Shown: positions 3,021-44,766 of the stretch, piece after piece | How the letters are laid out: each line of letters starts with the position of its first letter | Position numbering within the stretch: position 1 is the stretch's first letter | IMG/VR virus record: IMGVR_UViG_3300046535_000246 | Span: 1 to 44,766 of that record | Strand: one strand, 5' to 3' | From: a virus | Length of the DNA: 44,766 bases | Notes under the pieces: generated by a model | Databases searched by the model: none | The model's input: only the letters and a program-made list of their open reading frames with translations | What the model was told of the DNA's origin: nothing | Position numbers and translations under genes: made by a program

Positions 3021-3767
3021 CTAACGACTGAACCGATAACGACGGAAGCGATCTACGCCGGGACTCTCTGAACCGCTGTCGAGTACAACAACATAGCCGG
3101 TACCAGCAGGAGCGATGCCGACACAAGGCCAATGCTGGTCGTTGAACCCATTGGCACCACCAAGGAACGGAGCACCATCATAAGCACGAACAGCACCAGT
3201 GATGTCCGCAACCCAACAACCTCCCGTTATTGAATCGGTCGAAACCATGTTGACAGAGACTCCTTGTGGGATCGGTGTAGGACCTACTCCTGAAGCAATC
3301 GAAAGAATTGCAGGACGTTCAGCGAGTCGAACCTCGCAAGGACACGCTGTTGCAACACCCATACGATGGTAACCGAACCCCGGTTCTCCATCATTGTTTG
3401 CTAGAAGTGGCTTCCAACCGTGACGAGCCATCCCCTCAGCATATAAGACCGCCAAAGAGTTACGCATGGCATTGGTCATAGGCTCATCATGTGGGGGAGA
3501 CACACAACCTTCAGTCTCAACCCCGTTATACCGACCGTTCATTTGCATTGCGTGCCAGGCTACAACATCTGAATCCACATACTGCTCAATGGTTCCAGAT
3601 TGAGACACCCAAAAATGGGACGACAACTCAACACTTGGGTCATTGAACCTGTCGAACAGAGAACCGTAAGAGACAGCATGATGAAGCAAGAGCCCAAGAT
3701 TCTGGTCCATTCTCCCACCATGATTACCACCAATGGGGCGATGAACAGCACAATCGAACCAGCTCAA
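3021..3767 (-). CDS. N-acetylmuramoyl-L-alanine amidase (Amidase_2 / PGRP type)
   Basis: This 248-aa peptidoglycan amidase, a zinc hydrolase that cuts between MurNAc and L-Ala, starts at TTG 3767 behind AGGGG. The catalytic domain spans about residues 20-150: HH at 29-30, the WHA segment near 71, a Glu near 86, YHRMG with His134 and ACPC with Cys142. These match the His/His/Cys zinc ligands of the family. The C-terminal part (about 165-248) has GGCWVADITGAVRAYDG and CVGIAPAGTGYVVV. It resembles one to two copies of the wall-associated repeat common in actinobacterial amidases (GYWLV..DGGVFAFG..). It lies between fibre and hub genes, so it could be either the endolysin or a virion-borne lysin. 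The holin is 10 kb away on the circle. Confidence 0.88.
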   Translation of the reverse strand: MSWFDCAVHRPIGGNHGGRMDQNLGLLLHHAVSYGSLFDRFNDPSVELSSHFWVSQSGTIEQYVDSDVVAWHAMQMNGRYNGVETEGCVSPPHDEPMTNAMRNSLAVLYAEGMARHGWKPLLANNDGEPGFGYHRMGVATACPCEVRLAERPAILSIASGVGPTPIPQGVSVNMVSTDSITGGCWVADITGAVRAYDGAPFLGGANGFNDQHWPCVGIAPAGTGYVVVLDSGSESPGVDRFRRYRFSR

Positions 3768-6900: not shown

Positions 6901-7860
6901 CTACTGTTTCGCCTGCGATGCTTGGGCGAGAACAGAAGCGACCAGTGATTTCGTGTCTCCTCTTGAGAGACTCCGCACATCGTCGTTTCCTGTGGCGGTA
7001 GCTCCTCCACCACCACCCAAGAGGTTGGGGGCTCGACCATTAGCACTGAGCTGCTTTCCGGCTCGTTCCTGAACGAGATCATTGAATGCCTTGATGGCTT
7101 CCTCAGGACCTGAACCCTGATAGACCCTCATCAGCACCCACTGATCGTCGAAATCACCGAACTCCGTATGCAGCCCCTGTAGCCAAGAGTCAAGTTCCTG
7201 ATCCTCTTGAGCTTGGGTCTTGGTTGCTTGTTCACCAAGGACGTGCTGGGCAAGCGCAACGAGCATCTGCTGCATTTGATCGAGTCGCTGTTGCGCCTGT
7301 GGCGGAAGTTCTCCCTCTGGTCCAGAGAGCCCCTGGTCTTGCTGCCCCTGAGGAGGTTGCTGCCCTGGAATCTCCTGCCCTACAGGGGGCTGCTGCCCCA
7401 TGAGTGCTTGATGCAGGATTCCATACACCTGCCAAGGATTCTCGTCGATCACCTGGGCAAGTTGCATTGCAGCGGAGATGTTTTCAATATCTCCGAACTC
7501 CTGATATGGGGCGAGCTGAGACTGTAGCTCTTGGAAACGCCGTGTTACGCCAGCATCCCACTGCTTGACGTACGGCTCGAGAATGGCCCTGTGCTCCTCT
7601 GGCACACGCTGGAGGAATCCAGGGCCGAGGCTGTATCCGTCTCCCGAAGACGACGAACCCTGGCCTTGTTGCTGACCACCGTTTCCGACAGCTTCTCCCT
7701 GGGGAGCAGGGCTGCTGCCGGTGGCTGTGCCTTCCTGCGAGCCACCAGTATCCCCAGCCGTCTCGTCTCCTCCCGAGACTACTGGAAGAACGGTTCCATC
7801 TGAGAACACCCAAGTGTCCTCGTGTCTCTCGTAGGTTAGGTCCTGGCTACTGGTGGTCAT
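6901..7860 (-). CDS. Capsid scaffolding protein
   Basis: This 319-aa protein starts at ATG 7860 behind AAGGAG. A longer reading frame upstream has no ribosome site and would overlap the 4-Cys gene. The N-terminal 80 residues are acidic, Ser/Gly/Gln-rich and probably disordered. The middle and end are helical with Gln/Pro-rich linkers (GQEIPGQQPPQGQQ) and long Gln/Glu helices (PPQAQQRLDQMQQMLVAL). The C-terminus ends in a short basic helix (SVLAQASQAKQ), the usual capsid-binding end of scaffolds. It lies immediately before the capsid gene. The role is inferred from composition and position. Confidence 0.72.
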   Translation of the reverse strand: MTTSSQDLTYERHEDTWVFSDGTVLPVVSGGDETAGDTGGSQEGTATGSSPAPQGEAVGNGGQQQGQGSSSSGDGYSLGPGFLQRVPEEHRAILEPYVKQWDAGVTRRFQELQSQLAPYQEFGDIENISAAMQLAQVIDENPWQVYGILHQALMGQQPPVGQEIPGQQPPQGQQDQGLSGPEGELPPQAQQRLDQMQQMLVALAQHVLGEQATKTQAQEDQELDSWLQGLHTEFGDFDDQWVLMRVYQGSGPEEAIKAFNDLVQERAGKQLSANGRAPNLLGGGGGATATGNDDVRSLSRGDTKSLVASVLAQASQAKQ

Positions 7861-8161
7861 TTGAGACTCCTTGTGAGACTGTGCCCTCAGAGGGTCCTGG
7901 TCTCGAACTGTGAGAATTGCAGGCGCCCGTCGCAGGAACGCTGCCTGCAACAATAGAACATGAACCGCCCCCCTTACCGTCCCCTTGAAAGTGCTCACAA
8001 CTTTGACACGAGGCTTCGTGAGATCCAGCGGTTCTAAGACCACTTTTGGACGGACTCATTTTGCCCTTGAGCACATCGACGGTTATGTTCTTCCGATGGG
8101 TAGCATCATGAACTACCCTGCCGGGGGACCGACGATTTCGAGTCCAGTCCGTTGAATTCAC
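7847..8161 (-). CDS. Small four-cysteine protein (possible Fe-S/HiPIP-like or zinc site)
   Basis: The GTG start at 8161 overlaps the previous stop (GTGA) and the end overlaps the scaffold start by 14 bp. The N-terminus is basic and flexible. The C-terminal half has a compact cysteine pattern, C-x2-C (CQSCEHF), then CSIVAGSVPATGAC, with four cysteines near residues 53, 56, 68 and 80. This spacing resembles small phage proteins annotated as high-potential iron-sulfur or rubredoxin-like, often found beside head genes. The metal is not determinable here. Coupled start and end make it a real member of the operon. Confidence 0.6.
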   Translation of the reverse strand: MNSTDWTRNRRSPGRVVHDATHRKNITVDVLKGKMSPSKSGLRTAGSHEASCQSCEHFQGDGKGGGSCSIVAGSVPATGACNSHSSRPGPSEGTVSQGVSNDHQ

Positions 8162-8682
8162 TTGGCGTTCTGAGCAAATCCTGAAGGAGCGCTGGTCTTG
8201 TTGAAGCCTTCGAACTTGGAGAGGATTCCAGTCCGACCTTGAGTGTTCTTGGTCGAAGCAGCCGTGGATTGTCCTGCCCGAGGATTGATCCGTCGAGCCA
8301 AGGCATTACGAGACGGCAACCCAGGGTGACTCTTCCCAGGTTCGATGGTCGGACCAGCCTTCTTCGAGCTATTCGAGGTCACCGTGGTCTGCTTGGCCCC
8401 GTTTCCACGGTGACTACTAGATGGTGTCTCCCGACCAGTTGAAGAACCACCGTGAGAGTTGACGCTACTGAACCCGTTGGTAGCTGAATCACCTTGAGTT
8501 GGCTTGTCGATGCCAAACTTCTTCTCCATCGCCTCCAGGCCCGCCGACTCACCCTTCTCCTCACCCGGTGAACCCTCGTTCGGACCCATGTGAGCCTTCA
8601 TCCAGGCTACAGGGTCAGGTATCTCACGCTGCTTGGCACCGACGTTGGCGGTCTTGTGTTGTCCCTTGCTCGGGTTTGCCAT
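8158..8682 (-). CDS. Hypothetical low-complexity head-region protein
   Basis: This 174-aa protein is rich in Ser, Gly, Asn, Lys and Thr and probably mostly disordered. Only a short N-terminal segment (IPDPVAWMKAHMGP) and GLEAMEKKFGIDKP look structured. ATG at 8682, downstream gene coupled by GTGA. I do not recognise a family. Its position between portal and scaffold genes suggests a minor head or assembly component, unproven. Confidence 0.6.
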   Translation of the reverse strand: MANPSKGQHKTANVGAKQREIPDPVAWMKAHMGPNEGSPGEEKGESAGLEAMEKKFGIDKPTQGDSATNGFSSVNSHGGSSTGRETPSSSHRGNGAKQTTVTSNSSKKAGPTIEPGKSHPGLPSRNALARRINPRAGQSTAASTKNTQGRTGILSKFEGFNKTSAPSGFAQNAK

Positions 8683-8688
8683 GAGAAC

Positions 8689-8958
8689 CTACCTGACTGT
8701 GGTTGGAAAGTCAGCCAGCCGCAGAGCGTACACCATGTCGTTCTGAGTCATGGTGTTGAGGCGAGCGACTGTGAAGGTTGATGCGCTGATGGCCGTGAGA
8801 CGCGCTCGCAACGTGGCGATGGAGTCGTCATTGACGTTGCCGTCATCAAAGCCGTTCTGAGGACTGGTATTGCTACCAGTCATGTTGGTCTTCTGAGTAC
8901 CAGACCCGGTGTGAGCAGCGGTGACTCCGAGTTGGTTTCCGACTTGCTGGTCAGCCAC
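8689..8958 (-). CDS. Hypothetical small head-region protein
   Basis: This 89-aa protein starts at GTG 8958 behind a perfect AGGAGG and overlaps the preceding gene by 8 bp. The first half is Gly/Asn/Thr-rich. The second half is a compact helix-type segment (IATLRARLTAIS, LNTMTQNDMVYALRLADFP). No family recognised. It could be a small head accessory protein judging only from its neighbours. Confidence 0.55.
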   Translation of the reverse strand: MADQQVGNQLGVTAAHTGSGTQKTNMTGSNTSPQNGFDDGNVNDDSIATLRARLTAISASTFTVARLNTMTQNDMVYALRLADFPTTVR

Positions 8959-9133
8959 GCTTCTTACCTCCTGAGTTCATGCGTCGAATTGTAGCATTGG
9001 CGATCCTGATTGCCTTGGCTTCATCACCACTACTCTTGTAGACTGCATTGGCGATCTGAGAAGCCTTGTCGGCAGGAATCCTACCGAGTGAGTGATTGTG
9101 CTTCTTTGCGAACGACTTTCCCGTCCACGGCAT
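8951..9133 (-). CDS. Small basic conserved-type protein
   Basis: The protein has 60 aa and starts MPWTGKSFAKKHNHSL. It is followed by a helix (ADKASQIANAVYKSSGDEAKAIRIANATIRRM) and a lysine-rich end. Proteins with the pattern K-H-N-x-x-L ... A-N-A-x-x-x-x-G-x-x-E-x-x-A-I-x-x-A-N are common in phage head operons and near ChaB-like annotations; the function is unknown. It is placed directly after the portal gene. Its high basic charge would allow DNA contact. Confidence 0.65.
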   Translation of the reverse strand: MPWTGKSFAKKHNHSLGRIPADKASQIANAVYKSSGDEAKAIRIANATIRRMNSGGKKRG

Positions 9134-9137
9134 CGCT

Positions 9138-11207
9138 CTACCCCGAGGGTCCCTGTTGTGCGAGTGGGTTGATCGGTGGCATCTGCACCTGTCGATTCAC
9201 AGGATGAGCAGCACCGCCTGGCGGAAGCTGATGAGGAGGCGGCATCAGGTTTGGAGCGCCGGGATGCCCAGGAAGTCCTGGCGGAGCACCAGGGAGTGGT
9301 GGTTGCCCAGGTGCTCCACCAGAAACTTGAGCCATCGCAGCAGCTTGCATCTGATTCTGCTGGAGTGCTTGCTGGTGCATTTGAACATGCTCCTCGAAGG
9401 CGGCCTGAACCTGAGGATCTGAACTGTCGAACCGCTGACGCTTCCGCTCATCGTTGTGCTCATTGATGTGGATTGTGTGTTCATCCCAAGAATGCACATT
9501 GACAGGCATTCCCTTGAGCATCTTGAGATTCTCACGCTGAGCTGCTCTGGCGTCCCGCTGCATCTCCTCATACAGCCGACCAGTTTCGGCCATGTCGAGG
9601 TATCTCAGCGCTCGATCAGGAGGAATCCACCCCATCTGACCAAGCTGCATGATGAACGCCTGCTTGGCAGCCCGAGACCTTGGCATCGCAGAACCAGACT
9701 GAACATTCAAGTCCGTATTACCTGCGAGATCCTGATTTGAAAAGATGAACGACTCGTATTCCCCATCTGTACCGACAACTCGAACTGTTCGAGGAAGGTC
9801 CCAAAATTGCTGGACCATCTCAAGCAGGTGCTTACCGATACGTTCGATTCCCTCTTCGAGTGACGAAACCGTATTGGCGAGCTTTGTGTCGTCGGCCTCT
9901 TGCAGATAGGAGATGGCTGTCGCTGCGGTGACGCCAGGAGGAGCCTGTCCCTTGGTGACTTCGTGTTGTCCTGAGATATCCGCCATATCTGTTTGGCAAC
10001 GATTCAACTCCTCGATGACATATTCGGGGATCGGCTCAAGCTTCAACGGCGTTGGGGGAGCGAAACCGGGCGTATAGAAAACAATCAACCCAGGCTCAGA
10101 CGTGATCTTGTTCGGGTCGATTGAACCCCTTGGAGCGACCAACTGAGGCTTTGCCATACGATTCTTAGCCTCGATGATCTGAGACCGTGTCCTGTTGTAT
10201 TCCTTCTGGAGTGGAATCAGGTCAGAGATCACTGATTCAGCGTAGAACCTACCAGTAGGAACATGATCGAACTTTGTGAAAGGATACTCCCCATGATCCC
10301 AGGGGAATGAGTCAGTGACCGACAGGGGCGTGTCGGCGGCGTAGATTATGACCGCTCCATTGGGCCACTTTCCACACGGCTTGACCCAGCACTCTTTCAC
10401 CGAGACGTGGTCATACCCTGTCTGCTGCTGGATTCCAAGTGCCTGTAGGAACTTCTGCTCCAAAACCCCACCACTGGAGTTCGAGTCAGCCGGAACCTCT
10501 ACCCCCCAAGTATCCTTGATATACTCAGGTGTCTTCGCAGCGACATGGAAGACATATGGCTGGAACTCAATCTCCTCTTCCTCCACATCAGGGACGAAGA
10601 AGTGGAATGGAGTGATATTCTCGAGCCGAATCCGACCAGGGATACCAGACGAGTCAGGTTGCTGACCATCGTACCAGTCCTTGATGAATCCGTTGCCAGT
10701 GAGACACTGCCAGAACGTCATCCGTCGAATGACCCTCTTAGCTTTGAGGTCTCGCCACAGGTATTCAAAGATGTTCTCAGCGGCACGAGCGCCAGCCAAG
10801 TCATCGTCATCAGTGCTTGCCGGAATGACGTAAGGCTGAGGATCTTCCTTCGTCAACTTGGCGTGCTCAGATCGAATGATTGGGCGAATCTTGTTCGTCA
10901 CCAATCGAACCCGCCACGGAGGAGCGGGTGGCTCGTACATTCGAGCGTAGTTTGAACCAGTCCCGAAGTTTGGAGTCCACTGAACGTACTGCCGGCCGAA
11001 GTAGAAAGCGATATTCGTGTACCAGGCACGCTCAAATTGAATTCGAGACTTCCGACACAATTCGAACTTCTCTTCAGCCCAATTCATCGCTTCCCGTTCA
11101 GCAGCACCGGAAAGAGACTTTGAGACAACAGACTGACCATTGGACGAACCAGAAGAAGGTACTGCTCCAACATCAGCAGTTCCAGTGAGTCCAAGTATAT
11201 CAGTCAA
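9138..11207 (-). CDS. Portal protein (podovirus type)
   Basis: The protein has 689 aa; its TTG start at 11207 overlaps the previous gene by 8 bp. It forms the dodecameric DNA channel at one capsid vertex. Portal-like segments appear in order: RIQFERAWYTNIAFYFGRQYV, WRVRLVTNKIRPIIRSEHAKL, a conserved NGFIKDWYD, FPWDHGEYPFTKFDHVPTGR, then the long helix with EYNRTRSQIIEAKNRMAKP (crown/stem region). GQHEVTKGQAPPGVTAATAI and NTVSSLEEGIERIGKHLLEM follow. The last 90 residues are Gln/Met then Pro/Gly-rich (GAPGQPPLPGAPPGLPGHPG) and probably disordered. Length and order match large portals of T7- and N4-like phages. Confidence 0.88.
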   Translation of the reverse strand: MTDILGLTGTADVGAVPSSGSSNGQSVVSKSLSGAAEREAMNWAEEKFELCRKSRIQFERAWYTNIAFYFGRQYVQWTPNFGTGSNYARMYEPPAPPWRVRLVTNKIRPIIRSEHAKLTKEDPQPYVIPASTDDDDLAGARAAENIFEYLWRDLKAKRVIRRMTFWQCLTGNGFIKDWYDGQQPDSSGIPGRIRLENITPFHFFVPDVEEEEIEFQPYVFHVAAKTPEYIKDTWGVEVPADSNSSGGVLEQKFLQALGIQQQTGYDHVSVKECWVKPCGKWPNGAVIIYAADTPLSVTDSFPWDHGEYPFTKFDHVPTGRFYAESVISDLIPLQKEYNRTRSQIIEAKNRMAKPQLVAPRGSIDPNKITSEPGLIVFYTPGFAPPTPLKLEPIPEYVIEELNRCQTDMADISGQHEVTKGQAPPGVTAATAISYLQEADDTKLANTVSSLEEGIERIGKHLLEMVQQFWDLPRTVRVVGTDGEYESFIFSNQDLAGNTDLNVQSGSAMPRSRAAKQAFIMQLGQMGWIPPDRALRYLDMAETGRLYEEMQRDARAAQRENLKMLKGMPVNVHSWDEHTIHINEHNDERKRQRFDSSDPQVQAAFEEHVQMHQQALQQNQMQAAAMAQVSGGAPGQPPLPGAPPGLPGHPGAPNLMPPPHQLPPGGAAHPVNRQVQMPPINPLAQQGPSG

Positions 11208-27266: not shown

Positions 27267-28100
27267 ATGGCAAAGGGTAGCAGCGGATCGGTGACCATCT
27301 CGGTCGATCAGCTCTCGGATCGGGCGAAGATCATCACGGAGATCGACAGCAAGATCGCAGCGGCCAGCGGCAACGACTCGCAGATGCGGAAGGCAGCCGT
27401 GGACGAGATCCTGTCGGCCAACGCCGAGCGGATCAACTCGCTGTTCGACACGGTCGTCTCGCAGCTCATGGGGCTGCCGGGTGAGGAGCTGGTTGGCATC
27501 GTCTCCAAGCTGGAAGAGGCGATGAAGGGCGACTTCAAGACCAAGACCGACCTCGTCATCGACGAGAAGGTCAAGGCGTCGGCCAACGTCGAGGGCGTCG
27601 ATGTCAACGCTCTCAAGGAGCAGCGCAAGGCCGAGCTGGACCTGTTCCGGGCGCTGAAGACGATGCTGGACTCGCTGGGTCTGGACACGTCCGAGGTCGA
27701 GGAGCCCAAGAGCCGTGGTGGTGGCCGTCCGAGCGGTTCGGGTGCCGGCTCCAAGACCGGCAAGAACAAGGAGGGCTACCGCTACATCATGGACGGCAAG
27801 GACCGGCCCAACTCACAGAACAGCTTCTCCTCGCTGGCCTACTACGCCACTGAGGGTCTCAAGGACCCGGCCACACCTGGCGGCGAGATCACAGCGGCTC
27901 CTGAGGGGGAGAAGTCCCGCATGTCCAGCAAGGCACTGCGGACCTGGCTCGACCAGCAGGGCGTCAAGTTCGGTGAGGCCGACGAGTGGGAGCTGACCCT
28001 GCCCAACGGCAAGAAGATCGGTGCCCGACGAGATGCCGACTCGTCCACGACCGAGGCGGCCCCCACCGAGGCACAGTCGGAGGAGGTCCCGGCAGCCTGA
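27267..28100 (+). CDS. Stand-alone GC-rich early protein, probable paralogue of the 285-aa gene
   Basis: This 277-aa protein starts at ATG 27267 behind AAGGAG. The N-terminal half is helical (KIITEIDSKIAAASGNDSQM; LKEQRKAELDLFRALKTML). A Gly/Arg/Ser linker (SRGGGRPSGSGAGSKTGK) leads to a C-terminal domain: YRYIMDGKDRP, SFSSLAYYAT, SSKALRTWLDQQGVKFG, WELTLPNGKKIGARR. This domain resembles the end of the 285-aa protein. The gene is very GC-rich at third positions, has its own promoter and a strong terminator, and lacks the dispersed CCTGTAG word. I infer an abundant, possibly DNA-associated protein; no family is known to me. Confidence 0.72.
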   Translation: MAKGSSGSVTISVDQLSDRAKIITEIDSKIAAASGNDSQMRKAAVDEILSANAERINSLFDTVVSQLMGLPGEELVGIVSKLEEAMKGDFKTKTDLVIDEKVKASANVEGVDVNALKEQRKAELDLFRALKTMLDSLGLDTSEVEEPKSRGGGRPSGSGAGSKTGKNKEGYRYIMDGKDRPNSQNSFSSLAYYATEGLKDPATPGGEITAAPEGEKSRMSSKALRTWLDQQGVKFGEADEWELTLPNGKKIGARRDADSSTTEAAPTEAQSEEVPAA

Positions 28101-28118: not shown

Positions 28119-28150
28119 GAAAGGGGACCCTCGAAAGGGGGTCCCCTTTC
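28119..28150 (+). terminator. Strong hairpin after the 277-aa gene
   Basis: Perfect 12-bp arms GAAAGGGGACCC (28119-28130) and GGGTCCCCTTTC (28139-28150) with an 8-base loop, 19 bases after the stop. It is immediately followed by ATGTTTAAGGAGG, the ribosome site of the Rpf gene, so read-through or coupling may feed that gene. Confidence 0.8.
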
Positions 28151-28167
28151 ATGTTTAAGGAGGACTC

Positions 28168-28716
28168 TTGAAGCACAAAACCCTAGCAGTAGTCGCAGTA
28201 ATCCTCGCTTCTTGTTCAGGATCGAAGCCCCAACTGTTACCCACAGACTCACCAACGTCATCAACGACCTCCACTACCGAGGCAGGAGACCCAAGGCTGA
28301 TAGCCATTGTGGCCTCTCGGAGTGGGGGCTTTCTATTTCCAACGACAACCACAGAGCCGCCAACAACTACAACTGAGCCACCGACCACTGTTCCGGTGAC
28401 TGTACCGCCCACAACAATACCCCGACCAGTACCTGTCACTCAACCCACCGCACCCCCTGTAGTAATCTCGACTGACTACGGTGATGCTTTCTCTCGACTT
28501 CGTCAGTGTGAGTCGGGAGGTAACTACTCAACTAACACTGGCAATGGTTACTATGGAGCATATCAATTTTCAGCAGGTACCTGGCAGGGTCTAGGCTACA
28601 GTGGCTTACCGAGCGACGCTGATCCAGCGACACAGGATGAGGCCGCACAAAAACTCCAACAACGGAGTGGGTGGGGCCAATGGCCTGCCTGTTCCCGATC
28701 TCTAGGATTAGGCTAA
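28168..28716 (+). CDS. Secreted lipoprotein with Rpf (resuscitation-promoting factor) domain
   Basis: The protein has 182 aa and starts at TTG 28168 behind AAGGAGG. Residues 1-16 are a lipoprotein signal peptide ending in the lipobox LASC (Cys16). A Thr/Pro-rich spacer (about 25-97) carries TTTTEPP repeats. Residues 107-182 match the actinobacterial Rpf fold, a lysozyme/transglycosylase-like muralytic domain: LRQCESGGNY with catalytic Glu115, NTGNGYYGAYQFSAGTWQ, then GWGQWPACSRSLGL. Cys114 and Cys175 are the usual disulfide pair. The enzyme should be exported and anchored outside the membrane, where it opens peptidoglycan. It stands between two high-expression genes in the early unit, not with the lysis genes. 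Wall loosening, waking dormant hosts or superinfection exclusion are possible roles. Confidence 0.88.
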   Translation: MKHKTLAVVAVILASCSGSKPQLLPTDSPTSSTTSTTEAGDPRLIAIVASRSGGFLFPTTTTEPPTTTTEPPTTVPVTVPPTTIPRPVPVTQPTAPPVVISTDYGDAFSRLRQCESGGNYSTNTGNGYYGAYQFSAGTWQGLGYSGLPSDADPATQDEAAQKLQQRSGWGQWPACSRSLGLG

Positions 28717-28735: not shown

Positions 28736-28764
28736 TTGACTAGACCACGAGTGTATGGTACTGT
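28736..28764 (+). promoter_or_regulatory. Promoter of the 163-aa gene and downstream structured region
   Basis: TTGACT (28736-28741), 17 bp, TACTGT (28759-28764). TAGACCA (28741-28747) directly abuts the -35 box. The predicted start near 28771 gives a short leader before ATG 28807. Confidence 0.72.
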
Positions 28765-28806: not shown

Positions 28807-29298
28807 ATGGGGTATTTCCCCGAAGGTGTTGTCACTCCGCAGCCTCCTCACAACCCGCTTCGGCCAGTTGTGAAGCTGCTCTCCGTCAAGGCCAAGAAGG
28901 CCATGTACGCAGCTTCTCAGAAGGGCCTCATCAAGCGAGGCACCTGGGACGGTTGTGCGTTCAACGCTGCCGGCGGCATCATGGGCGAAGGCGACTCGGT
29001 TGCTTCGTTCGGTCGTGCGGCTGAGATCTTCGACATGCCGATCAGCTCGGTCCAGGCGTTCATCACCGTGTGGGACGGCATCGGCGGTTCGGATGAGCAC
29101 GCCAACCGTCTCCTGGTCGAAGCACTGACCGAGACCGGCCTTGCTGTTCCCCCCGGTCAGACTCGTGGCAAGCGGATCATCCGTGGCTATGCCTACAAGT
29201 CCGAGGCCACCAAGTTCCAGGAGCAGCTGGAGTCTGGCGAGCTGACCGTTGACATGATCCCCGGATGCTCGGAGGCAATTCAGCTTCTGAGCGTCTAA
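28807..29298 (+). CDS. Stand-alone GC-rich early protein
   Basis: This 163-aa protein has ATG 28807 behind AGGGAG. After a Pro-rich start it has a basic helix (KLLSVKAKKAMYAASQKGLI) and GTWDGCAFNAAGG. A helical core follows (FGRAAEIFDMPISSVQAFITVWDGIGG, HANRLLVEALTETGL), then a basic RGKRIIRGYAYKSEA. Codon choice is like the capsid gene and the two paralogues, suggesting strong expression. The central segment could hold a small helix-turn-helix. I do not recognise it. Its transcript should run on into the stem-loop array. Confidence 0.7.
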   Translation: MGYFPEGVVTPQPPHNPLRPVVKLLSVKAKKAMYAASQKGLIKRGTWDGCAFNAAGGIMGEGDSVASFGRAAEIFDMPISSVQAFITVWDGIGGSDEHANRLLVEALTETGLAVPPGQTRGKRIIRGYAYKSEATKFQEQLESGELTVDMIPGCSEAIQLLSV

Positions 29299-36395: not shown

Positions 36396-36588
36396 GATCC
36401 TCGCTCAAAACGGGATGGAAGTCCCGGAGCCGTTCAACAAGTATCTCAAAACAATGGACCGCATCAACCGGGGCGTGGCTCAGGTTTGGAAGTGTCGGTC
36501 CTGTGGGAAGGAGCATGAAACTCCACTCCCCATCAAGGAGATATCATGTTCCTGTGGACATATGTGTCGGAAGATTTGGCCCAAATAA
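36373..36588 (+). CDS. Small zinc-ribbon protein at the end of the early unit
   Basis: The protein has 71 aa from ATG 36373, overlapping the resolvase by 23 bp; the ribosome site is weak. A basic helix (RLSKAAKILAQNGMEVPEP) leads to WKCRSCGKEHETPLP and ISCSCGHMC, a four/five-Cys ribbon. Its last 45 bp overlap the 3' end of the WhiB gene on the other strand. Confidence 0.6.
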   Translation: MRLSKAAKILAQNGMEVPEPFNKYLKTMDRINRGVAQVWKCRSCGKEHETPLPIKEISCSCGHMCRKIWPK

Positions 36589-36834
36589 AGCCTTCATCTC
36601 CCGACGTTGCCACTCATCAGTGCCACCGAAGATACCATCATCTATCTGCTCTGTCCACGCATAGATGAAGCACTGAGTTTTAACAGGACATCGTTTGCAG
36701 ATACTCTTGGCGAAGGGTGTCGTCGCCTCATTCTTTGAGGTTGGAAAGAAGATGTATTTATCTTCACGACTCCTACAGGCGGCGGCCAGTTTCCAGTTAG
36801 GCTCTGGACTCTCTGCTTGGTCCACGAGTGCCAT
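36544..36834 (-). CDS. WhiB-family Fe-S transcription regulator
   Basis: The protein has 96 aa; ATG 36834 behind GGAGGAG. Four conserved cysteines (20, 46, 49, 55) lie in AAACRSRED and SICKRCPVKTQC. FFP precedes them and GIFGGTDEWQRREM, the WhiB G[IV]xGG turn, follows, with a final basic/polar tail. WhiB proteins bind a 4Fe-4S cluster and act with SigA. They occur only in actinobacteria and their phages. It is the last gene of the late unit, converging on the early unit. Confidence 0.92.
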   Translation of the reverse strand: MALVDQAESPEPNWKLAAACRSREDKYIFFPTSKNEATTPFAKSICKRCPVKTQCFIYAWTEQIDDGIFGGTDEWQRREMKALFGPNLPTHMSTGT

Positions 36835-36926: not shown

Positions 36927-37124
36927 TCAAATAGGTGGAAACAGGGAGGCCGAGTTACGGTTTCCAATGCGTCGAGCAACAAGACACTTGGCTCCTGAAA
37001 TTGCTGCCGCTACCCCTGCGATTCCGAGATCTCTTAGGTTCAAGTGCTCGGTGACGAACCACGAGCCAAGAAATGCCTGAAGGGCTGTTCCAACTATGCG
37101 TTCAGACGCATCTCTCCAGAACAC
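36927..37124 (-). CDS. Holin, r1t-like
   Basis: This 65-aa protein has a GTG start at 37124 overlapping the upstream stop (TAGTG). The order matches small r1t-type holins of actinobacterial and Gram-positive phages: MFWRDASERIVGTALQAFLG, then a hydrophobic helix GIAGVAAAISGAKCLVAR, then IGNRNSASL. Two membrane helices are predicted (about 9-24 and 33-50). It would form the lethal membrane lesion releasing the endolysin. It follows the transglycosylase-like gene. Confidence 0.82.
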   Translation of the reverse strand: MFWRDASERIVGTALQAFLGSWFVTEHLNLRDLGIAGVAAAISGAKCLVARRIGNRNSASLFPPI

Positions 37125-37699
37125 TAATACCAGCCGTGAGCCTGCCAGAACTCCTTGGCCTTAGTCGGAGTTCCATAGCGCTCAGTAATGTACTGCATCG
37201 CCATCTTGTCTTGAAGGTTCGGATCGTGAGTGTTGGGGTCCGAAATGCCTAGTTTCTGAGCGTACGAAGCTCGATTGTAGTCGAGAAGCTGTCCACGCCC
37301 AAACGCCGTTGACGTTGGATTCTGAGCGTTTGGATCACCACCAGACTCATGCTGGATGATCCAGTCATATGCTGCCTGGTCCTCAGGTCCGAGACCAAGT
37401 CCACCAGTCTGACTGGCAAGCGCCTCTCCACCGGAACTTCCACCGCCGTATGCTCCTGGCTGCCCAGCCGGAGTCATATCTGGCCCTGTAGGAGATGGTC
37501 CAGTCGGGGTTGATGCCCCAAGAAGAGCTTGATCCCCGCCACCAGAACTCTGCTGCTGATTCATGGCATCAGCCAGTGGGTCCTCTTGCTGGATTTTGAG
37601 AGAGTCTAAAGCATCCTGAATGTAGCTTGGAGTGCCATCTTCAGAGCCATCATTGACAGGGAACTTCAGCTTCCCGATCTGAATGAATTGAGTCGCCAT
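37124..37699 (-). CDS. Lytic transglycosylase-like virion protein
   Basis: The protein has 191 aa from ATG 37699 overlapping the previous stop (TGATG). Residues 40-105 are Gly/Ser/Pro-rich. Residues 108-191 form an SLT/lysozyme-like domain: YDWIIQHESGGDPNA (Glu118 as catalytic acid), TAFGRGQLLDYNRASY, MAMQYITERYGTPTKAKEFWQAHGW. Such domains in ejection-protein clusters open the wall locally during DNA entry. Being directly before the holin, it could instead be the lysis enzyme. Confidence 0.8.
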   Translation of the reverse strand: MATQFIQIGKLKFPVNDGSEDGTPSYIQDALDSLKIQQEDPLADAMNQQQSSGGGDQALLGASTPTGPSPTGPDMTPAGQPGAYGGGSSGGEALASQTGGLGLGPEDQAAYDWIIQHESGGDPNAQNPTSTAFGRGQLLDYNRASYAQKLGISDPNTHDPNLQDKMAMQYITERYGTPTKAKEFWQAHGWY

Positions 37700-40425
37700 C
37701 ACTTCCCGGCTTTCTTCAGAGCAGCATTGATTCGCTGCGTCTTGATAGATCGAATACGTGCTGAGATCGGAGTCTGTTGGCGCCGCAACTCAGACAACTG
37801 CATCTGAGGTGTGATCTGCCGACCGCCAAGACCCGTGAGGAAGTTGAATATCTCAGTACCAGGCTTTTGCGTGGTCTGCTCACCAGGCAGGATGATCCTA
37901 TTTGGAGTGGGTGGGTTCTTCAGGTTCGAAGCGAATCGAGTCAGTGGAAGTTGATTTGTTAGGTACTGAGGAAGCCCACCATGCAGTGGTGCTCCACTAA
38001 CCAAACTCTTTCCTGTGGCATTCTCTACCAAAGCCCGAGCAATTGGTGAAGTCTGACCCAACTGCTTACGAAGAACCTCACTGGTCGAACCAGAGTACGA
38101 CCTTGATAGGTCTTCAAGTGGAAATGGCACATCGAGGTACCGAGCTAGCTGCCCACCCTTCTGCCCCTGTAGCCTGAGGTTAAACACATCTCTCATGTAT
38201 GCAGGGATTTGCTCACCAATGGGCAGATGCTGAGGATCTGTTCCAAGCATGGTCTGAATTGCGTTGAAAGCCTTGGGAATTTGAGCCATCTTGCCAGGAT
38301 TTGACATCAGCATTTCGAGCTGCAAAGGCATGTTCTTCCGCATGAAGGTATAAAACGGAACGAACCGACGAATGCGAGTCTCGAATTGGGTTAGATCAGA
38401 GTAGTCGAAGTGATAGTGTCGAACTACTCCAGCAGCTTTTGAAGCCGCCTTGTTGAGATCAGCAAATGTCTCAACACCACCCATTTTGGCAGCTTCGTCC
38501 TTTAAAGCACGAGCGAAGGTTGTCATTCGAATGATGTTTTCACGAGCGGCATTAAAGGTACGCAATTTCTCCATACCAGTATTAACCGGACCCGTTATGT
38601 GGGCCGACAGACCACCTGGAGTAGTAGCACCAATAAGTTCGGTATTTGAGAAGCCCATGTTGGCGCCATGTTCTTTGAACATTCGCTGTAACTCAGCAGC
38701 ATCCCAAAGCTTATTACCACCACCCTTAGCAGCGAGCTGAATAGCCCCTTCCCCTCGAAGTACTCGATACCCACGAATCAAATCCTTGGGATCAGTCACT
38801 CCAGCTTCCCAAGCTTGGAAGAGATCACCAATTGAGTTTCGAACATAATGAGAGGGGTTCATTGTCGTAACCCCTGTCTTCCAGAGCCTCTGAAACTCAT
38901 CAACCATCTTGGTGAATTTCTGAGTCTCTACGTCCGACAGGTAAAAACTATTCAAGGTACGAATGCCGTGACGAACCTGCTCCGGCACATACACAGTTCG
39001 CTTGCCAAGAGTCGGAACATCTTCGTGAGTCAGCTTAACAAGACCTGACTTTTCTGCTGCATTTTGAGCAGCCGTCTTCCCTAAACCAGCAAACTCAGTC
39101 CCATACTGGTCGATTGCATCATGGTGAAAAGCAGTTCGACCGATCAGGTTGTTATGCTCAGATGCTCGAAGCTTTAGAACATCAGTGATATTCTCATGTG
39201 GATGAAGGTTGGCATCCTTGAAATCTTCAAGAGTTGGAAAAGGCTTCTTGGGAGTATTGCCAGCCTTCAGTTGAAAAGTGTTATTACGAGCACGACTCGT
39301 CAATGCTTTGGCTGCGTCTGTTTCACCTTCCCCCTTGGGAAGAAACTTCGGAACGTAGTTTGGAGCCCCAGCGCCAGGACTTGTCAACCCATGAACTGCC
39401 TCAGTCTTATGGTAGTCCTCAATAAAGGCTCTCGAACGATTTACAAGAGTTTGCATATCAGTGCCATCCTTAGAGAGTTGACCTGTAAGGTCAGTTCCCT
39501 TTTCAATGGCATGATGAATTTCAACTCCCTGCTCTGGAGTTATATGCTGCCCGATGGCATCATGGATTATATTGTACTCTTCAAGAGTAGACCCAATAGC
39601 CTGCTGACGACCCACAGCAAGACGGGTCTTGAGTTCACCGGGATACTTTGCAGCAGTACGGAATGAGTTATTTGCCCAATCAACAAGAGGGTTGGCGGCA
39701 ATCGGACGACCAACCTTAGCAAGAGCAGCATACGCCTTCTCAGAAGATGCTACAGGGCGGCCCAAGAAGTTGAGGTCGAGTGAACCCTGCTTACCTGTGG
39801 CCTTAGCAGCCTTCTGTGCGAGACCTGCGACAGTAGCCAACGTGTCAGCCTTTGAGGCACCTTTGGTAACCTGCTGAGCAGCTTGAATTGCCTTGCCACT
39901 CTCAGCTATACCCTCTACCGCAGGAGCAGCCTTTGTTAAGCCGAGTGAAACGAAGTTGGTTGGGTCAGTGAGAATATCAGTACCGAATCCCAGAGCGCCT
40001 CGTGCGAGCTTGTTCTTCATCCCCATGTCGCTATAGACATTGGAGAAGCGGGTCTTGTCTTTCCCCTCAAGACCACGAAGAAACCCACCCCCAAGAATAC
40101 CGGGGAGCTTACCGATATCTCCACCCTTGCCTGCGGCCTTATTCGCATTGATGGCTTTCACTACTGCATCGAACGTGTTAGCCACAGCGTAGTTGGGCCG
40201 AGAGATTACATCGAGGATTCGACTGAGAGGACTTGGATGCCCACCAGAAGGAGAGGGTAGATTTCCACCTTGAGCTTGAAGCCGCATCTTCTGAGCATCT
40301 AGTTGAGCCTGAAGTGTTTGAACCCTGGAGTTAGCTACTCCCTGATTTATGGCTCCTTTCCAGTTAAAAGTACCAACTGGAGTGGCTGCCTTTGTCTTGA
40401 GAGCCTTAGACCAGTCATAGGCCAC
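37699..40425 (-). CDS. Large internal virion / ejection protein
   Basis: This 908-aa protein has a GTG start at 40425 right after the previous stop, with AAGGGG upstream. It is mostly helical. FVPFYTFMRKNMPLQLEMLMSN (about 690-710, given here in part) is a segment recurrent in very large phage virion proteins. It is preceded by MNPSHYVRNSIGDLFQAWEAG. Helical N-terminal heptads contain VQTLQAQLDAQKMRLQAQG. With two Q-rich neighbours and a lytic domain protein it forms the expected ejection cassette of short-tailed phages, the counterparts of T7 gp14-gp16. The role is inferred from context. Confidence 0.7.
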   Translation of the reverse strand: MAYDWSKALKTKAATPVGTFNWKGAINQGVANSRVQTLQAQLDAQKMRLQAQGGNLPSPSGGHPSPLSRILDVISRPNYAVANTFDAVVKAINANKAAGKGGDIGKLPGILGGGFLRGLEGKDKTRFSNVYSDMGMKNKLARGALGFGTDILTDPTNFVSLGLTKAAPAVEGIAESGKAIQAAQQVTKGASKADTLATVAGLAQKAAKATGKQGSLDLNFLGRPVASSEKAYAALAKVGRPIAANPLVDWANNSFRTAAKYPGELKTRLAVGRQQAIGSTLEEYNIIHDAIGQHITPEQGVEIHHAIEKGTDLTGQLSKDGTDMQTLVNRSRAFIEDYHKTEAVHGLTSPGAGAPNYVPKFLPKGEGETDAAKALTSRARNNTFQLKAGNTPKKPFPTLEDFKDANLHPHENITDVLKLRASEHNNLIGRTAFHHDAIDQYGTEFAGLGKTAAQNAAEKSGLVKLTHEDVPTLGKRTVYVPEQVRHGIRTLNSFYLSDVETQKFTKMVDEFQRLWKTGVTTMNPSHYVRNSIGDLFQAWEAGVTDPKDLIRGYRVLRGEGAIQLAAKGGGNKLWDAAELQRMFKEHGANMGFSNTELIGATTPGGLSAHITGPVNTGMEKLRTFNAARENIIRMTTFARALKDEAAKMGGVETFADLNKAASKAAGVVRHYHFDYSDLTQFETRIRRFVPFYTFMRKNMPLQLEMLMSNPGKMAQIPKAFNAIQTMLGTDPQHLPIGEQIPAYMRDVFNLRLQGQKGGQLARYLDVPFPLEDLSRSYSGSTSEVLRKQLGQTSPIARALVENATGKSLVSGAPLHGGLPQYLTNQLPLTRFASNLKNPPTPNRIILPGEQTTQKPGTEIFNFLTGLGGRQITPQMQLSELRRQQTPISARIRSIKTQRINAALKKAGK

Positions 40426-44063: not shown

Positions 44064-44766
44064 CAGATTCCTATGTGCAACGCAGCGAGCAGGTTCTTCT
44101 GCGTCTTGAGATTGGTTGCGATTGTATCTGATGAAGGAGGCGGAGGAATCACTGTCTTGTCGATTGTGTAGACTTGACCTGTGAATGAGGCAGTTGTAAG
44201 AGCGTTGGAAGCTACATCTGTTATGCCAGTATTGTTGGCAAGGTTGAGTCCCAACGTCCCATTGCCACTCCCAGTATTCGCTGTAACTACCCACGTATCT
44301 GTGGGACCGGGACCAACTGCACTCGTAATGGATGGAGCTATCAGTCCTCCGTTTACCAGTCCAAAGTTTGATGCAGTAACTCCATTGACGGGCTCAGAGA
44401 ACACCACTGTCCATGACACGCTTGTAGCGTTTGTTGGAGATCCGCTATTTCGTGTTATCGACAATAGTGTCGGAGGAGTAGTATCGCCCCCTCCAGAAGT
44501 AGCCGCTGCAACGATACTCAATTCATCAACAGAGGATGTAGTATCAAAGATGTGAAGACCATGCTTTGTTGCAGTCTGACCCAGACTCGAAGTAAAAGTA
44601 GTCAGAGGTACAATGCTGTCTTTATAGACAGTGATCGTTGGTCCACTTGCTACCACTCGAAGAGTGTAAGGTGTATTTACAGCAATACCACCTGGCACCA
44701 CAACATCAGCCAGCAAGGTTGGTGAACCACTCACCCATGAAAAAGCTCTCAGGTGACAGTCACTTG
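44063..44766 (-). CDS. Tail fibre / receptor-binding repeat protein, C-terminal part (continues from base 1)
   Basis: Continuation of the gene that starts at 1432; the true join is base 1 to 44631, and 44632-44766 duplicates 1-135. This part carries the end of the third 172-residue module (VVASGPTITVYKD), then an Ig-like domain from Asp527 (DTTPPTLLSITRNSGSPTN, FSEPVNGVTASNFGLVNGG). It ends in a short Pro-rich tail (IPPPPSSDTI). The end is coupled to the small beta-rich protein by TGATG. The 44758 A variant would put Cys where the left copy has Gly. Confidence 0.75.
   Translation of the reverse strand, partial: SDCHLRAFSWVSGSPTLLADVVVPGGIAVNTPYTLRVVASGPTITVYKDSIVPLTTFTSSLGQTATKHGLHIFDTTSSVDELSIVAAATSGGGDTTPPTLLSITRNSGSPTNATSVSWTVVFSEPVNGVTASNFGLVNGGLIAPSITSAVGPGPTDTWVVTANTGSGNGTLGLNLANNTGITDVASNALTTASFTGQVYTIDKTVIPPPPSSDTIATNLKTQKNLLAALHIGI
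44632..44766. repeat. Direct terminal overlap of the circular contig (right copy)
   Basis: Same sequence as 1-135 apart from A at 44758. It should be removed when the genome is circularised. Confidence 0.9.

Follow-up and report, generated by a model that had tools for sequence, protein, structure and literature searches.

A gene for a predicted Rpf-type lipoprotein on the replication strand of a podovirus with a probable actinobacterial host

Rpf domains have been known in bacteriophages since the tape-measure motif of Barnyard, and Rpf motifs in phage tape-measure proteins are already published (PMC1796659, PMC6392294). Cultured phages also carry stand-alone genes for small Rpfs of the secreted type, namely gp102 of the Mycobacterium phage prophi79-1 (annotated as resuscitation-promoting factor), gp174 of the Streptomyces phage GiJojo (near an endolysin gene), gp046 of the Rhodococcus phage Weasels2 (clustered with thymidylate synthase) and gp107 of the Rhodococcus phage Shagrat. 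No lipobox cysteine was found in the N-termini of these four proteins. The last of them (L221:2917-3423) is annotated as a glycosyltransferase; its sequence reads as a signal peptide followed by an Rpf domain and then a LysM-like repeat. In the literature searched we found no paper studying a stand-alone secreted phage Rpf, an absence that is no proof. The initial annotation of the locus described here had presented a phage-encoded Rpf as a novelty, which, given the published motifs and the genes of cultured phages, was an overstatement. What is new is an Rpf that is predicted to be lipid-anchored, is encoded on the replication strand and has its domain at the C-terminus.

The window, by which we mean the whole stretch of 44,766 nucleotides analysed (IMG/VR virus record IMGVR_UViG_3300046535_000246, classed as linear), is bounded by 135-nt direct terminal repeats (1-135 and 44632-44766) that are 99% identical. 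The repeats indicate that the window is probably a complete genome, and we describe it as the apparently complete, 44.8-kb genome of an SU10/P22-like podovirus. With the genome probably complete, the minus-strand genes at its two sides would make up a single late unit, running from about 15.5 kb down to 1 and then from 44.7 down to 36.5 kb. This unit encodes terminase, a P22/SU10-type portal, an SU10-type capsid protein, an adaptor and a collar protein, together with an Amidase_2 protein that is the probable endolysin (3021..3767, minus strand), an r1t-type holin (36927..37124, minus strand), an SLT-like transglycosylase related to the C-terminal parts of tape-measure proteins (37124..37702, minus strand) and, at the end of the unit beside the holin, a WhiB-like regulator (36544-36834, minus strand; PF02467, 61 bits). 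The WhiB-like gene has the same position in most relatives. A WhiB made by a phage might influence septation in the host, or it might affect other phages.

The replication unit lies on the plus strand between 15.8 and 36.4 kb (DNA methylase, exonuclease, SNF2 helicase, PD-(D/E)XK nuclease, Sak4-like recombinase, primase-helicase and PolA), and it is this unit that houses the rpf-like gene (28168..28716, plus strand). The holin, amidase and SLT genes all lie on the opposite strand and more than 8 kb away, confirming the earlier statement that the gene stands apart from them. Its assignment to an early region stands as far as co-orientation with the replication genes goes; early expression itself we infer from strand and neighbours. 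Among the window ORFs that were scanned, with the small ones covered in part, neither an integrase nor a repressor could be recognised. The presence of Rpf and WhiB suggests that the host is probably actinobacterial; it probably lives in soil. To look for the host, the capsid protein was searched against 395 genomes from the class to which an Acidimicrobiaceae MAG belongs, with two weak matches only.

The rpf-like gene starts with TTG, is preceded by the strong Shine-Dalgarno sequence AAGGAGG (28157..28163, plus strand) and encodes a protein of 182 amino acids, as read from the ORF and from Pfam and PDB sequence matches. Its first 16 residues, MKHKTLAVVAVILASC, have the form of a lipoprotein signal with the lipobox L-A-S-C16; the coding stretch for this predicted signal peptide (MKHKTLAVVAVILAS) and the putatively lipidated Cys16 is 28168..28215 (plus strand). 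Among the 109 Shine-Dalgarno-preceded starts with open reading in the window, the Rpf start alone passes a PS51257-like lipoprotein rule, making a chance lipobox unlikely. The protein is thus predicted to be exported by way of a signal peptide with a lipobox. A Thr/Pro-rich linker of about 87 amino acids (28216..28476, plus strand) leads to the Rpf catalytic domain (28477..28713, plus strand), and Pfam detected no second domain such as LysM or G5 in the protein.

The identity of the domain is supported by Pfam, PDB matches, an alignment of viral domains, AlphaFold2 and Foldseek. PF06737 (Transglycosylas) matches residues 108-175 with an E-value of 3.4e-21 and 76.1 bits against a cut-off of 27; the PHROG match is to 'transglycosylase', and the PDB sequence matches are confined to RpfB, RpfE and RpfC. 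In the alignment to RpfB, Glu115 (codon GAG, 28510-28512, plus strand) and the pair Cys114 (28507-28509, plus strand) and Cys175 (28690-28692, plus strand) align with the catalytic glutamate and the disulfide of the M. tuberculosis Rpfs; the equivalents in RpfC are Glu16 and Cys15-Cys76 (PMC4648573). The glutamate is invariant across 14 viral Rpf domains. The AlphaFold2 model of the domain (pLDDT 80) has a predicted fold closest to M. tuberculosis RpfB, RpfC and RpfE, and Rpf structures fill the first 14 places among its Foldseek matches, with TM values reaching 0.80. The NCBIfam equivalogs Rpf (NF046106; 70.5 bits, cut-off 180) and RpfC (NF046107; 57.7 bits, cut-off 200) match within the domain only and fall far below their cut-offs. 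The family search and structure prediction that the initial annotation had proposed therefore bear out its reading of a complete Rpf domain with Glu115 and the Cys114/Cys175 pair, and the LASC lipobox with Cys16 and the Thr/Pro spacer are likewise as it described.

The gene lies between two genes of unassigned function that are kept in relatives, one upstream (27267..28100, plus strand), which marks the insertion site, and one downstream (28807..29298, plus strand). Directly before it is a strong RNA hairpin with a 14-bp stem and a GAAA loop (28119..28150, plus strand). Among the perfect hairpins that were found across the window it is the longest; the region folds with -36.5 kcal/mol (z -3.2), and no T-run follows. 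This hairpin probably ends the preceding transcription unit, being a putative terminator, in which case transcription of the Rpf gene would depend on read-through. Behind the gene, and before the next one, is a promoter-like block, TTGACT-N17-TACTGT (28736..28764, plus strand), which is absent from the calls of a generic promoter scan. The scan also gave no promoter of the Rpf gene's own, and the block occurs once, downstream. Riboswitches precede some host rpf genes; Rfam gave no match for the window, nor for any of 7 cellular rpf loci.

A near relative, G002 (46.7 kb; capsid 77% and primase-helicase 62% identical to the window), has no Rpf. In its genome the two flanking genes are adjacent, with just an analogous hairpin in the same place and, directly after it, the promoter-like block between them. 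The window block, TTGACTAGACCACGAGTGTATGGTACTGT, matches the TTGACC...TATAGT block of G002, and AGACCACGAG and TATGGTA are common to both phages, with a single occurrence in the window. The Rpf gene of the window sits exactly between hairpin and block. The empty, otherwise contiguous site in G002 shows that the gene is a discrete insertion, behaving like a 'moron'. Relatives for this comparison were found only via primase-helicase and capsid searches, a single-sequence search of IMG/VR with the downstream gene having returned none.

Across the 11 near-full-length relatives searched (42 kb or more), a single genome, G020, encodes an Rpf that passes the Pfam cut-off; with the window phage, two of 12 members carry the gene, which is therefore dispensable. 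The G020 protein is also a lipoprotein by rule (Cys17) and its gene is on the replication strand, at a different site, upstream of thyX. The gene is thus optional and mobile, and both carriers keep the replication strand and the predicted membrane anchor. Three other Rpf-like matches, all in relatives of the window phage, were rejected. That of G004 (L053; about 18717 to the contig end) has the first conserved cysteine replaced, is without a signal peptide, scores below the Pfam cut-off and is cut by the contig end; the match in G016, an NlpC/P60-type protein, and the one in G021 are also below the cut-off.

In IMG/VR an alignment-based scan gave 295 confirmed relatives, 80 of which were retained. 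Secreted Rpfs appear to be scattered through many actinobacterial viruses: 65 of 83 distinct Rpf domains are preceded by an N-terminal hydrophobic export signal under a permissive, uncalibrated start-choice rule, and lipoboxes are present in several environmental proteins (L005, L142, L181, L196 and G020). Neighbours of the genes include a DnaQ exonuclease (L002), an MT-A70 methylase (L004) and an integrase (L010); in L196 a lipoprotein Rpf is encoded beside DNA methylases and a primase-polymerase, and in L006, L011, L013, L014 and L142 the gene is near CHAP, GH25 or amidase genes. Two IMG/VR contigs with lipoprotein Rpfs, L159 and L168, lack clear phage genes over the part that was read and are perhaps non-viral. 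In L181, an environmental phage contig with a terminase, three consecutive small genes have lipoprotein- or export-type N-termini (7719-9411), the first being the Rpf lipoprotein; together the three may form a cassette of cell-surface genes. In L007 (9484-10344), from another environmental phage, the Rpf gene comes immediately after a WhiB-like stretch and has a methylase and a DnaQ-type exonuclease downstream.

In a domain tree of 84 rows, with few columns and most forks uncertain, the window domain is placed within cellular Rpfs from organisms of Acidimicrobiia, Frankia and Pseudonocardia type, and it is 75% identical to the Rpf of an Acidimicrobiaceae MAG. A clade uniting it with the Rpf domains of cultured phages, in which tape-measure, lysin and secreted types were pooled, was rejected (AU p=0.0003). 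The grouping with phage endolysins that the initial annotation had set against its own reading was thus not recovered, the domain being nested in cellular Rpfs. A single origin of the window and G020 Rpfs was not rejected (AU p=0.23). On the tree the environmental viral Rpfs need 11 label changes, of which well-supported branches impose at least 6; this argues for repeated gain or loss. These results suggest that the domain was captured from an actinobacterial cell. Base composition as an argument for a recent capture was rejected: the GC3 of the gene (0.43), although the lowest among the replication-strand genes measured, equals that of the phage's amidase and tail genes and is unlike that of a high-GC donor, which suggests that the gene has long been resident.

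We tentatively favour the explanation that the lipoprotein acts from outside the membrane on the wall of the infected cell itself, remodelling it to keep the host growth-competent. A gene for an Rpf-type wall hydrolase, inserted as a moron between two conserved replication-strand genes, would be expressed together with the replication proteins or shortly after; the host Sec system would export the product, which would be lipidated at Cys16 and held by its flexible Thr/Pro tether on the outer face of the cytoplasmic membrane. There the domain could cleave glycan strands of the cell's own peptidoglycan, and the limited reach of the tether would let the wall be loosened and renewed, not destroyed, so that a slow-growing or dormant host may stay or become growth-competent and productive. 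The complete domain and fold, the lipobox, the discrete insertion and the nesting among cellular Rpfs support such an effect on host state, as do the clustering of the Weasels2 Rpf with thymidylate synthase and the neighbours of the L196 Rpf. It is made plausible by three published observations: infection by Rhodococcus phage WC1 raises host rpf genes, which its authors interpreted as perhaps preventing hosts from going dormant (PMC10986025), infection of Rpf-deficient mycobacteria by two phages was reduced according to a meeting abstract (PMC12908700), and a tail-borne wall hydrolase motif of TM4 aids entry into stationary cells (PMC1796659). The timing and level of expression are less certain because of the upstream hairpin and the lack of an evident promoter of the gene's own.

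The same protein could instead be an accessory secreted endolysin, exported early, restrained by the energised membrane and adding glycan cleavage to that of the amidase when the holin fires, a possibility we consider nearly as likely as remodelling of the host wall. The Tgl protein of kayviruses is secreted, is transcribed from an early promoter and lyses the cell on membrane depolarisation (PMC7150955); the endolysin of the window phage is an amidase, which a glycan-cutting partner would complement; and secreted Rpf genes are found near an amidase or other endolysin gene in L006, L011, L013, L014, L142 and GiJojo. The initial annotation's view that a role in lysis is unlikely was therefore too strong, since Tgl is early and yet an accessory endolysin, and several environmental secreted Rpfs are encoded near endolysin genes. 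These points, together with the dispensability of the gene, weaken the case for an effect on host state. However, the gene is far from the holin and amidase and on the opposite strand, the G020 gene is likewise on the replication strand, a lipid tether restricts reach, and a second muralytic protein, the SLT-like product (37124-37702), is already present. What leads us to favour wall remodelling over lysis is that two related phages carry the gene on the replication strand, each at its own site and away from holin and amidase.

Superinfection exclusion, in which a surface lipoprotein alters or binds the wall and so blocks injection by a second phage, has a precedent in Ltp of Streptococcus thermophilus phage TP-J34, a lipoprotein that is located outside the membrane, prevents DNA injection and is regarded as a possible moron (PMC3952083). 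Proteins of that type are expressed from prophages, whereas the window gene, although for a lipoprotein by rule, is in the replication-strand unit of a genome with no integrase or repressor among the ORFs scanned; its intact catalytic residues would be needless for a plain plug, and the wall hydrolase motif on the TM4 tail helps entry (PMC1796659). We consider exclusion unlikely. We assign the lowest likelihood to a neutral or transient passenger, a host gene lately acquired and functionless for the phage. The lack of the gene in most relatives, including the closest near-full-length one, and its lowest GC3 on the replication strand would fit a passenger, but the frame, ribosome site, signal peptide and catalytic residues are all intact, the match of its GC3 to amidase and tail genes instead of a high-GC donor suggests long residence, and there are a second lipoprotein Rpf in G020 and at least 6 label changes for viral Rpfs on the tree.

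Most soil bacteria are slow-growing or dormant, and lytic phage production in such hosts is an open question. A wider proposal, which we regard as doubtful, is that actinobacterial viruses have repeatedly captured and re-equipped host Rpfs, some as lipoproteins made along with the replication proteins, and lift infected cells, perhaps also their neighbours, from dormancy; the Rpfs would then be a virus-coded growth signal by which unproductive hosts become productive. Were the role lytic, the locus would instead represent a two-stage lysis strategy, with a tethered glycan cutter put in the wall early. The 295 viral matches and the members in cultured Rhodococcus and Streptomyces phages make that question of phage production testable.

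Compared with the actinobacterial Rpfs (M. luteus Rpf; M. tuberculosis RpfB, RpfC and RpfE), the window protein has the same domain, predicted fold, glutamate and disulfide pair, and it is predicted to share their export and action on peptidoglycan outside the membrane; it differs from them in being phage-encoded and in having a plain Thr/Pro tether and a C-terminal domain. The Rpfs of prophi79-1, Weasels2, GiJojo and Shagrat are likewise products of small genes, each combining an N-terminus that resembles a signal peptide with a single Rpf domain. In these, however, the catalytic domain comes straight after the signal peptide, LysM-like or other C-terminal tails are present in three of the four, and the domains are on a different branch of the tree. 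The tape-measure motif of Barnyard, Giles and CRB2 is also an actinophage Rpf domain, but within a virion protein (PMC1796659, PMC6392294), whereas the window Rpf is predicted to be a separate exported lipoprotein. Ltp of TP-J34 is, like the window Rpf, a phage-coded, moron-like lipoprotein, though of another lipoprotein family and expressed by the prophage from a lysogeny module (PMC3952083). Kayvirus Tgl is comparable as a secreted phage transglycosylase with an early promoter that is distinct from the major endolysin; it is, in contrast, an SceD/IsaA-like member of a staphylococcal family with a type I signal peptide, encoded a few genes from lysK and demonstrated to be an accessory endolysin (PMC7150955).
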